IMG/VR virus record: IMGVR_UViG_3300032334_000897
Span: 1 to 31,083 of that record
Reading direction: 5' to 3' (one strand)
Source of the DNA: a virus
DNA: 31,083 nt
A model generated the notes under the pieces. It was not told the DNA's origin and ran no database searches. It saw only the letters and a list, made by a program, of their open reading frames with translations. The number at the start of each line of letters is the position of its first letter. Position 1 is the stretch's first letter. Positions 28,560-31,083 of the stretch are shown one piece after another. Made by a program: the position numbers and the translations under genes.

Positions 28560-29445
28560 CATTCTGTCTCGCCTTGGTGTTGACGGCAAATATCTTACTG
28601 GCAAGCACAGTTCATGTCCGGTGTGTGGCGGCAAAGACCGCTTCAGATTTGACGACAAAGGTGGCCGTGGCAGTTGGATATGCTCGTCATGTGGAGCGGG
28701 AGACGGCTTCGCCCTCGTGTCCAAAGTGAAGGGCATGACTTTGGCGGAGGCCAAGGACATCGTCGAGCCATTGCTTCCGTCGGTTGAGGCAAAGCCGGTC
28801 AGACAGCCCATCAGTGAGGGAGAGGCGCGGTCGAAGGCCAAGAAATTTTGGTCAATGACGACTGCCGTCACAGAGGAAAGCCCTGTCGCACAATACATGA
28901 TCAATCGGCTTGGCAAGTGGGTTGATTCTGATGCGATCAGGATGGCTTACCATGCACATCCCGCCGAGAAGGGGAGCAATTACCCTGTGATGGCGGCCAA
29001 GGTATCGGATCATGCCGGAGGCGGCGTGTCAGTCCATCGGACGTTCTTGTTGCCGACTGGCAGGAAGGCGGGGCATCTGTCGCCGAACAAGATGCTGATG
29101 CAAGGCGTACTTCCACAAGGATCGGCTATTAGGCTCTTTCCTGTGACAGACCATATGGCAGTGGCCGAGGGTATAGAAACGGCTCTGGCGGCGTTCTTGT
29201 GGACTGGGATACCGACATGGTCGGCGATCAATGCCCCCCTAATGAAATCGTTCGACCCACCAAAATCTGTGAAAAAGTTAACCATTTTTTCAGACAATGA
29301 TGCCAATTATACTGGGCAGTCTGCGGCATACGAACTTGCCCGGCGACTGGTGATGGGGCGAAATATCAGCGTTGAAGTCCGCGTCCCTCCGAAAAAAGGC
29401 GAAGATTGGCTCGATCATTATGTGGGGAACAGAGGAAATGAATGA
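28513..29445 (+). CDS. Zinc-ribbon / Toprim primase
   Basis: A 310-residue primase-type protein. The T7-gp4-like zinc ribbon has CPVCGGKDRFRFDDKGG and SWICSSCG (Cys35, Cys38, Cys57, Cys60). The Toprim domain shows MAVAEGIETALAA (Glu219) and LTIFSDNDAN (Asp261, Asp263), the expected acidic residues. No helicase domain is attached; the separate SF2 gene directly upstream may supply unwinding, although it is not of the DnaB/T7-gp4 class. It synthesises primers for phage DNA replication. The domain order and length fit the Toprim_3-containing phage primases. Confidence 0.88.
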   Translation: MNFATAQNQAQGKWHDILSRLGVDGKYLTGKHSSCPVCGGKDRFRFDDKGGRGSWICSSCGAGDGFALVSKVKGMTLAEAKDIVEPLLPSVEAKPVRQPISEGEARSKAKKFWSMTTAVTEESPVAQYMINRLGKWVDSDAIRMAYHAHPAEKGSNYPVMAAKVSDHAGGGVSVHRTFLLPTGRKAGHLSPNKMLMQGVLPQGSAIRLFPVTDHMAVAEGIETALAAFLWTGIPTWSAINAPLMKSFDPPKSVKKLTIFSDNDANYTGQSAAYELARRLVMGRNISVEVRVPPKKGEDWLDHYVGNRGNE

Positions 29446-29644
29446 AAAATGGCGGGTTGTTTACGATAACGACCAAATTTTCACGATATTTTGGTGCGGG
29501 AAGCAGGTTGCGTGGTCTCAATGGTCGCCGCTTTATCAGTTGTGGCGGGTGCTGATCTGCGACACTGGAGAAATGCATCACGTTGAAACATCGGAATTGG
29601 CCCTCGATGTTTGCGCCGGATATTTGGGTGTTGACAGGGCATAA
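29438..29644 (+). CDS. Small hypothetical protein (68 aa)
   Basis: A 68-residue protein rich in tryptophan and other aromatics: WRVVYDNDQIFTIFWCGKQV, then WSQWSPLYQLWRVL and HHVETSELALDV. The ATG at 29438 overlaps the primase stop by eight bases; GAGGA ends one base before it, which is close, so ATG 29420 is an alternative. The beta-strand pattern suggests a compact domain. I do not recognise a family. The 3' end contains the TTGACA of a downstream promoter (29631-29636). Confidence 0.65.
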   Translation: MNEKWRVVYDNDQIFTIFWCGKQVAWSQWSPLYQLWRVLICDTGEMHHVETSELALDVCAGYLGVDRA

Positions 29645-29700
29645 ACTCAAGCGTAAAAGGAATCATCAACGGGGCGATGCCCAAACCAACGGAGGCGAAT
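29631..29700 (+). promoter_or_regulatory. Promoter plus conserved 5' leader hairpin, copy 1
   Basis: TTGACA (29631-29636) and a weak -10 TAAAAG (29654-29659) are separated by 17 bases. The predicted transcript begins near 29662 with ATCATCAACGG, continues into a small hairpin GGGC/GCCC (29672-29675 and 29679-29682), and then CAAACCAACGGAG, whose GGAGG (29691-29695) is the ribosome site for the ATG at 29701. The same arrangement, with a different stem sequence, lies at 30750-30824. Confidence 0.65.
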
Positions 29701-30021
29701 ATGTTGTCAGTCTGGAACCACGAAGGCCAAATCGATCACGAACTCGATGGCCATGAGTTTCTTTTCCGCGATGCCAAAGTCTATGTGAACGCAAACACGA
29801 CTGTCGTCTATGGCCGTCAGTGGGGCGAACTCATGTGGGAATTTGACGAAATCAATATCATTTACGTCACCGACATCGACGGCGAAGACCTGAACCTGAC
29901 GCAAGACGAAGAAAAGGAATTGGCAAAGGTCATCGCTTACGAACTTTCAAACGACAGCAACATCGAGGAAAAAGTCCATGAGGATCACTCAGAAACCCTG
30001 TATTGGGAGCGTCGCGCCTAA
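29701..30021 (+). CDS. Hypothetical acidic protein (106 aa)
   Basis: A 106-residue acidic protein. The ATG at 29701, five bases after GGAGG, is preferred over 29677, which lies inside the conserved leader. The sequence has a beta-rich first part (VWNHEGQIDHELDGHEFLF, AKVYVNANTTVVYGRQW) and a very acidic C-terminal half (LTQDEEKELAKV, SNIEEKVHEDHSE). An acidic mimic or a protein-binding role is conceivable, but there is no recognisable family. It is the first gene after its own promoter and overlaps the following small gene by 44 bases. Confidence 0.7.
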   Translation: MLSVWNHEGQIDHELDGHEFLFRDAKVYVNANTTVVYGRQWGELMWEFDEINIIYVTDIDGEDLNLTQDEEKELAKVIAYELSNDSNIEEKVHEDHSETLYWERRA

Positions 30022-30145
30022 GCGCGGCACTGTGATAAGATACGAAACTTGGGAGGACGGCACAGTTGTCGCCCTCCGCGAAAATGAAGTTGGCGATAGA
30101 TGGTATGAAACTGTCATCGACAAAAATGGCAACCACACGTTCTAA
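29978..30145 (+). CDS. Small hypothetical protein (55 aa)
   Basis: A 55-residue protein from the ATG at 29978, with GAGGA at 29966-29970 seven bases upstream, and stop TAA at 30143-30145. The sequence MRITQKPCIGSVAPKRGTVI, then YETWEDGTVVALRENEVGDR and WYETVIDKNGNHTF looks like a small beta barrel. It overlaps the end of the acidic protein and finishes nine bases before the oxygenase start, so it occupies otherwise unexplained DNA with good spacing. The function is unknown. Confidence 0.7.
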   Translation: MRITQKPCIGSVAPKRGTVIRYETWEDGTVVALRENEVGDRWYETVIDKNGNHTF

Positions 30146-30154
30146 AGGTGAAAA

Positions 30155-30745
30155 ATGCTCGTTAATGATGTCAAAGTCCAATCAAGTCTGTTCGCCAACA
30201 TTGTCACTTGGGATGGAGTATTTTCAGCAGAAGAGGCTCAAAAAATTATTGAAATTTGCGAGGCGGAGGAGTTGAGAAAAGGCACAGTAATGGATGCAAA
30301 CAAAAGTAGTGAAGGTCGAATTTCTAACATTAATTTTCATCACCCGAACGATAAAACGAAATGGATTTTTGAAAGGCTGAATCGGTTTTTAGCCGAAGTT
30401 AACGATAAGTTTTTTGGCCTTGATCTTGTCGGTTTCGATTTTTTTCAATTTTCAACATATGATGCCAAGGAAAAAGGTCACTACGATTGGCATATAGATA
30501 GTTCCTTAAATGTAATCGACCACGATACGCATGGGCTTCATAGAAAGATGTCCCTGACGATCTTATTGAATGATGATTTTGAGGGCGGAGAATTTGAGGT
30601 CAACACAGGCAAGCCAGAAATTGTGCCATGCTTGAGGGGCAGGGCCATCGTATTTCCTTCATTCATTCTCCATCGAGTGAAGCCAGTTACGATGGGGGTT
30701 AGGAAATCCTTGGTCGTTTGGGTTCTTGGAAAAAGATGGAAATAG
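30155..30745 (+). CDS. 2-oxoglutarate/Fe(II)-dependent oxygenase
   Basis: A 196-residue protein of the PiuC/prolyl-4-hydroxylase-like fold. The iron ligands are visible as HID (His113, Asp115) and His173, and Arg183, ten residues after the distal His, is in the position that holds 2-oxoglutarate. The intervening KMSLTILLNDDFEGGEFEV and RGRAIVFPSFILHRVKPV are typical of the family. RBS AAAGG lies at 30144-30148. Phage members can act on protein residues or nucleotides; no substrate can be inferred here. It ends four bases before the second conserved promoter. Confidence 0.88.
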   Translation: MLVNDVKVQSSLFANIVTWDGVFSAEEAQKIIEICEAEELRKGTVMDANKSSEGRISNINFHHPNDKTKWIFERLNRFLAEVNDKFFGLDLVGFDFFQFSTYDAKEKGHYDWHIDSSLNVIDHDTHGLHRKMSLTILLNDDFEGGEFEVNTGKPEIVPCLRGRAIVFPSFILHRVKPVTMGVRKSLVVWVLGKRWK

Positions 30746-30749
30746 TGTG

Positions 30750-30824
30750 TTGACACTATTTACGGCTGAGTTTATTGTGATTCCATCATCAACGGCGCTG
30801 AGGCGCAAACCAACGGAGAGTAAC
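30750..30824 (+). promoter_or_regulatory. Promoter plus conserved 5' leader hairpin, copy 2
   Basis: TTGACA (30750-30755) and TATTGT (30773-30778) are 17 bases apart. The downstream leader shares ATCATCAACGG (30785-30795) and CAAACCAACGGAG (from 30806) with the element at 29631-29700. Between these lies a GCGC/GCGC stem (30795-30798 and 30803-30806) with TGAG loop where copy 1 has GGGC/GCCC, so base pairing is kept while sequence changes. The GGAG at 30814-30817 serves the ATG at 30825. Confidence 0.65.
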
Positions 30825-31083
30825 ATGGCTAAGGCAACAAAAATCAATCACTGGGAAGGTCTCTCGGTTCAGGAAATCATCGATGCCGCCGCTAAATTGT
30901 CGGCTGAGGCTTCCTTGATCGCAAAAAAACTTGATCAGGCTAAAGAAATCATCCGTGGCCTTGGCAAGGAACAATCCCACGCGGGTAATTTCTTCATCGC
31001 ATGCGTCGGCAAGGACAGCATTGGCTTCCGCGTTGATCGCAAGCGCATCGAAGAAGAGATGGGCAAGGATTGGATCGAAGACC
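30825..31083 (+). CDS. Hypothetical phage protein, truncated by window end
   Basis: An open frame from the ATG at 30825 that runs to the window end (86 codons seen). The sequence MAKATKINHWEGLSVQEII, then AAAKLSAEASLIAKKLDQA, FFIACVGKDSIGFRVDRKR and EEMGKDWIED has a helical first half, a small beta hairpin and a helix ending in W-I-E-D. This layout resembles small phage proteins near recombination nucleases that end in a DxxxVxxxLGxxWxxxH pattern; function is not established. It has its own promoter and conserved leader. A minus-strand frame here is antisense. Confidence 0.7.
   Translation, partial: MAKATKINHWEGLSVQEIIDAAAKLSAEASLIAKKLDQAKEIIRGLGKEQSHAGNFFIACVGKDSIGFRVDRKRIEEEMGKDWIED

Follow-up and report, generated by a model that had tools for sequence, protein, structure and literature searches.

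Two genes near the end of the viral record analysed here are each preceded by the same cassette, a promoter followed by a short 5′ leader with a G+C hairpin, and the leader recurs in other uncultured viral contigs. We regard it as almost certain that this anatomy is real, and that the leader is a conserved element of the 5′ UTR at the level of RNA. We are less firm on how it acts: with a probability of about 0.5, the minihairpin in this gene-independent cassette (promoter plus 5′ UTR) acts by its shape and stability, most likely as an architecture for protection and ribosome loading.

The window, by which we mean the whole stretch of DNA analysed, is the entire virus record of 31,083 bases. 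An earlier note had described two TTGACA promoters leading into near-identical hairpin leaders, and direct reading of the window confirmed both. The features are as follows.

29631–29659, + strand: promoter 1, with −35 TTGACA (29631–29636), a 17-nt spacer and −10 TAAAAG (29654–29659), from sequence and family geometry
29662–29700, + strand: leader 1, probable 5′ UTR, covariance model match of 52.9 bits, E 3.9e-11
29672–29682, + strand: hairpin 1, GGGC-GAU-GCCC, 4 bp with a triloop, from sequence and covariation across relatives
29691–29694, + strand: Shine-Dalgarno 1, GGAG, 6 nt 5′ of the ATG at 29701, from sequence
29701–30021, + strand: gene 1, 106-aa acidic protein of family A2, with homologues behind leaders in relatives
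30155–30745, + strand: 2OG-Fe(II) oxygenase gene (Pfam PF13640, E 2.7e-14; phrog_61, E 2.5e-34)
30750–30778, + strand: promoter 2, with −35 TTGACA (30750–30755), a 17-nt spacer and −10 TATTGT (30773–30778), from sequence and family geometry
30785–30824, + strand: leader 2, probable 5′ UTR, covariance model match of 54.0 bits, E 2.1e-11
30795–30806, + strand: hairpin 2, GCGC-UGAG-GCGC, 4 bp with a YNMG tetraloop, from sequence, covariation and loop-class conservation
30815–30818, + strand: Shine-Dalgarno 2, GGAG, 6 nt 5′ of the ATG at 30825, from sequence
30825–31083, + strand: gene 2, family A1 protein, truncated by the end of the record, with homologues in 19 other loci

In both copies TTGACA is followed by the 17-nt spacer, a −10 hexamer, ATCA(A/T)CAACGG, the hairpin, AAACCAACGGAG and ATG. 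The window contains the pattern AACGG-N-ACCAANGGAG-N-ATG exactly two times, and none of 100 shuffled versions contains it. Judging by the spacing from the −10, transcription is predicted to start at about 29665 (the A of ATCAACGG) in leader 1, and at 30785, 6 nt past the −10, in leader 2. The −35 of promoter 1 overlaps the end of the upstream ORF at 29372–29644. Its −10, TAAAAG, is weak and was not picked up by a generic promoter scan of the window, yet it fits the layout common to the family, in which TTGACA and TAnAAn are 17 nt apart and the leader begins about 6 nt further on. The oxygenase gene sits between the two cassettes and has no leader of its own; the relatives that were read carry other small genes there. 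Folded as single sequences, the window copies were no better than shuffles (z of +0.6, +1.1, +0.45 and −0.04), and the evidence for the hairpin is comparative.

Pattern scans of IMG/VR found the same leader in other uncultured viral contigs, and a covariance model was built from 30 leader copies. The model matched 19 of the 20 viral records searched, with two to four copies in most, clustered on one strand; most of these records had been picked because a copy had already been seen in them, and the fraction is not a prevalence. The leader is carried by about 18 uncultured viral contigs besides the window record. Run on the 31,083-base record, the model gave two matches only (E 2e-11 and 4e-11; the next had E 0.46), so that the further copies, for which the earlier note had suggested looking with such a model, lie in relatives and not in the window. 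The record ends 256 nt past the second start codon, and a further copy may be missing.

A less biased sample comes from 19 loci found by homology to the A1 protein. The hairpin is present at the same upstream position in 14 of these, and absent from five, which belong to two lineages (L221/L222 and L224–L226). A hairpin-less leader, ACCAACAACGC-AAACAACGGAG, stands before the A1 genes in these loci (870 in L224, 2972 in L225 and in L226, and before 3001 in L221 and L222), and L225 and L226 bear the full hairpin leader ahead of another gene. Other phages (L271 and L308, which were promoter-anchored matches, and L241) have a TTGAC promoter that leads through ATCAACAACGGAG to a start codon, the hairpin being absent; the TTGAC promoter with ATCAACAACGGAG is a minimal form of the leader. 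Elsewhere, in different phage contigs, a strong G+C hairpin is repeated immediately 5′ of AACCAAAGGAG-type Shine-Dalgarno sites that apparently have no promoter (L011 at 3479 and 3757, L016 at 6376, L026 at 2993, L039 at 5469 and 5760). This is possibly a broader phage habit of combining a hairpin with a Shine-Dalgarno site.

Rfam contained no family that matched the window at the gathering score, and the best sub-threshold matches were those of chance. A nucleotide search of 50,697 phage records gave no match, and neither did the covariance model on three of the closest named relatives, MW202675, PS-1 and YA3 (loci L228–L231). A pattern scan of 398 Pseudomonadota and 399 Burkholderiales genomes produced nothing convincing (four matches, all without the hairpin), and a shallow covariance model scan of 385 genomes of the class to which L154 belongs (Alphaproteobacteria) produced no convincing leader. 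As evidence against capture of a host leader by the phage, its absence from the sampled bacterial genomes is weak. The matches listed from a loose pattern scan of bacterial genomes, and from a promoter-anchored scan, were mostly chance, though the latter was the source of hairpin-less leaders. When the letters of the leader were sought in the open literature, the best matches listed were only papers on unrelated subjects, and no described motif like it was found in the searchable open literature.

The hairpin is maintained by compensatory change. Out of 36 distinct leaders, 33 have a perfect G+C stem of 3–4 bp; of the other three, one carries one mismatch and two lack the hairpin altogether. 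The hairpins take 17 distinct forms, with the arms GGGC/GCCC, GCGC/GCGC, GCAC/GTGC, GTGC/GCAC, GGC/GCC and GCC/GGC. The alignment contains 18 double-change cells, compared with 5.8 ± 1.5 in shuffles, and has a covariation score of 0.225, compared with 0.044 when shuffled and at most 0.052 when the pairing partner is slid; it was fitted to the model and places hairpins with a triloop or a 3-bp stem out of register, which brings its paired fraction down to 83.5%. The first collection of leaders required a stem, which makes the protein-anchored A1 set the fairer test. The tree of A1 proteins is short and resolved in part only; it requires at least five changes of the stem and two changes in whether the hairpin is present. 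The earlier note had read covariation from the two window copies, and had made its case depend in part on the stem being conserved in homologous leaders, as indeed it is. That the shape is kept while the letters change favours a structural role in the mRNA.

The loop is also constrained. The stable YNMG class, which includes the UNCG fold (PMC5633025), makes up 25 of the 27 tetraloops in distinct leaders, where random letters would give 1/16. The YNMG loops seen are UACG, UGCG, UUCG, CACG and UGAG, and the remaining two tetraloops are AACG. The loop of window copy 2 (UGAG) fits this class; that of window copy 1 is a triloop, as is often the case for copies of the leader 1 type. The YNMG loops are closed by C-G, and both arms of the stem change in a compensatory way. 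The loop preference argues for function as RNA. Across leaders the flanks, CAACGG and CCAACGGAG, hardly vary. In the sequences compared, the hairpin is a shape class and not a fixed sequence, which fits either a structural role or a protein that reads shape. The hairpins within one record always differ (0 of 23 pairs identical), but this is not significant (P = 0.26) and does not show that identical hairpins are avoided within a genome.

The promoter was compared across 38 distinct copies, of which 27 have TTGACA as the −35 and the others a near variant. The spacer is mostly 17 nt, and the −10 is TAnAAn-like; a 5-of-6 match to TTGACA is found in 42 of 46 copies, against 6.4 after shuffling. 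In most copies the −35 starts 34–36 nt upstream of ATCAACAACGG, where the leader starts, and the gap from the −10 to the leader is 6 nt. Given this promoter geometry, with the leader beginning about 6 nt past the −10, the leader probably makes up all of the 5′ UTR of the transcript that it heads, 37–41 nt in length. Its order is rigid, namely an unpaired tail of 9–10 nt, the hairpin, a linker of 7–9 nt, GGAG, 6–8 nt and AUG. Both the distance from the end of the conserved stem to GGAG and that from GGAG to AUG stay within these limits in every hairpin copy. The hairpin is only 10–12 nt long and is placed at about +10 to +22 of the predicted transcript.

Promoter spacers of separate cassettes in the same record have an identity of 0.57, against 0.34 when permuted (0/5000). 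Within a lineage, the spacers between −35 and −10 share the blocks GTGGATGCGTT, ATAAAGACTGCCG and GGTTGAAA (loci L028, L033, L059 and L089; L010 and L023; L030 and L061). Such blocks may mark an operator or an activator site, specific to the lineage, within the promoter. The likeness within records would be produced by a lineage-specific promoter factor combined with a leader read by shape, or by partial homogenisation of the promoters.

BLAST clustering places the leaders before at least 10 unrelated small-gene families, and the shared unit is therefore the leader and not the coding region, as had been proposed from the two window genes; the clustering bears out that these are unrelated to one another. 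In relatives the order is conserved as helicase, primase, a small gene with its end in the promoter, leader 1, and leader 2 with A1. Leader 1 precedes an A2-family gene in most relatives, and a third leader sometimes follows leader 2 and A1; in several relatives this third copy lies 0.7–2 kb beyond. Window gene 1 is 28% identical to A2 and gene 2 is 29% identical to A1, in each case to the first row of the alignment. For gene 1 (106 aa), Pfam gave nothing and PHROG a marginal match only; no relatives of it or of the window primase came up in a peptide-pattern protein search. The A1 protein of the window (30825–31083) has no Pfam or PHROG match, and the A1 family and its homologues (alignments A1 and A5, about 100 aa) have no convincing Pfam, PHROG or PDB sequence match; tblastn found no A1-family relatives in the 50,697 phage records. 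The structure of A1, predicted for a relative, is a long helix, a β-hairpin and two short helices, and a fold search with this model gave no structural match.

The mechanism that we favour is as follows. The cassette would belong to a group of uncultured tailed phages, in which it sits ahead of small genes by the helicase-primase block. A host-type (sigma-70-like) promoter would set the transcript start at the first A of AUCA(AC)AACGG, giving a 5′ UTR of 37–41 nt composed of a CAA-rich unpaired 5′ tail, a G+C minihairpin (YNMG/UNCG or triloop), an A/C-rich unpaired linker, GGAG and AUG. The hairpin would be an obstacle to scanning or decay, and a folding anchor beside an open ribosome landing region. 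Any gene behind the leader would be expressed strongly and similarly, and unrelated small genes would thereby share one expression class.

Several simpler versions were considered. Opening of the Shine-Dalgarno site by the hairpin is unsupported in folding models, in which the predicted accessibility from Shine-Dalgarno to AUG is 0.55, and also 0.55 with a shuffled upstream leader. The conserved stem stops 7–9 nt short of GGAG in all hairpin copies, and a riboswitch or RNA thermometer, in which such a hairpin would pair with the Shine-Dalgarno site or start codon, was rejected. At 37°C the hairpin competes with coding-region pairings in several copies, and its mean pairing probability is 0.59. 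RppH and RNase E require a 5′ end that is single-stranded (PMC3997798), and since the 5′ tail of 9–10 nt is free, a plain block of the 5′ end is unlikely; the hairpin could still hinder decay machinery moving inwards, with a ribosome on the nearby Shine-Dalgarno site. Entered into the E. coli standby-site formula As = 15 + P + D − H (PMC3936740), the leader geometry gives, by our own arithmetic, an As of about 27, which is in the range of unstructured leaders. A hairpin that is neutral for ribosome access, yet strongly conserved, calls for a more specific role. The shared cassette of the earlier note stands. The role suggested for it, in binding a translational regulator or in mRNA stability, stays a candidate: the predicted accessibility is unchanged, and the free 5′ tail speaks against the classical 5′-terminal block. 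Also counting against the mechanism favoured here are the two A1 lineages without the hairpin, and the other phages with a hairpin-less ATCAACAACGGAG leader.

The 5′ UTRs of ompA and papA have a short hairpin upstream of the Shine-Dalgarno site, which is compatible with translation and transferable between genes. These stabilisers block the 5′ terminus, whereas the phage leader has 9–10 unpaired nucleotides there and a hairpin of 10–12 nt; the stem does not lie within a few nucleotides of the predicted start, and a 5′-terminal stem-loop of the ompA type was rejected. The 5′ leaders of T7 mRNAs, for example that of gene 10, are similar in that several genes are headed by one leader type, which combines a strong Shine-Dalgarno site with a hairpin close to the 5′ end. 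However, the late leaders of T7 follow phage-polymerase promoters and their hairpin includes the 5′ end, in contrast to the sigma-70-type promoter and unpaired tail seen here. In T4, initiation regions of early mRNAs carry C(UUCG)G hairpins, and these UNCG-type hairpins near initiation sites are one point of likeness. Another is GGAG as the Shine-Dalgarno sequence of early genes, which is described together with RegB in PMC3014915. The T4 hairpins are mostly intergenic, whereas the phage leader is a fixed 40-nt 5′ UTR at +1.

A serious though tentative alternative is that the minihairpin and its flanks are the site for an RNA-binding protein of phage or host, which reads the YNMG shape and the single-stranded flanks and switches the early-gene set together. 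There is a precedent in enterovirus 3C protein, which binds oriL, where natural variation in domain d is confined to YNMG tetraloops and triloops (PMC5633025); this is a replication element of an RNA virus, and the analogy extends to shape reading only. Conservation of loop class and not of stem letters, together with the nearly invariant flanks, would suit such a protein, and a specific role of this kind would explain why a ribosome-neutral hairpin is conserved. On the other hand, there is no candidate protein: A1, which is often behind the leader, has no known fold match and is also found in a leaderless record (G018, the L221 record). In addition, loop size shifts between 3 and 4 within one genome. 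A full RNA-level regulon, in which one protein reads the YNMG minihairpin between CAACGG flanks and controls all leader-bearing early genes, with lineage-specific factors on the spacers, is unlikely.

We consider it very unlikely that the leader RNA modifies the emerging RNA polymerase, in the manner of lambda nut boxB or HK022 put, so that it reads through later terminators. The likeness is a small promoter-proximal hairpin in early phage transcripts, here at about +10 to +22. But every gene is served by a promoter and leader of its own, and these cassettes lie less than 1–2 kb apart, so that read-through is not needed, and the stems are only 3–4 bp and differ in sequence between copies of one genome. 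Lambda boxB is a sequence-specific pentaloop accompanied by boxA, whereas the phage leader keeps its shape and varies its letters; with variable loops of 3–4 nt in place of a fixed pentaloop, a lambda nut-type site was rejected.

That the palindrome works as DNA, as a repressor operator just past the transcript start, is highly improbable. It is an inverted repeat immediately behind a promoter, and the likeness of spacers within a record hints that some sequence-specific factor acts on the promoter itself; however, an operator would keep its letters, and here there are six arm sequences and no identical pair within a record (though, as noted, not significantly so), and the loops obey an RNA stability rule. 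Chance likeness or a fresh, functionless duplication can be dismissed: there are only two copies in the window, which fold no better than shuffles, but it is refuted by the copies in relatives, the covariation and the stem changes on the A1 tree, with compensatory changes in orthologous leaders of phages whose A1 and A2 are at about 26–35% identity.

Hairpin leaders in the 5′ UTRs of phage early genes are already known, and the present one is a new and well-supported family. This 5′ UTR element is small and modular, lacks an Rfam entry, is backed by comparative evidence of unusual clarity and is reused before many unrelated early genes. Its 17 natural stem-loop variants form a series for studying how a tiny stable hairpin, between tail and Shine-Dalgarno site, alters mRNA life and translation, and the leader is possibly useful as an expression part. 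For uncultured phages, it provides a handle on early (host-takeover) genes of unknown function.
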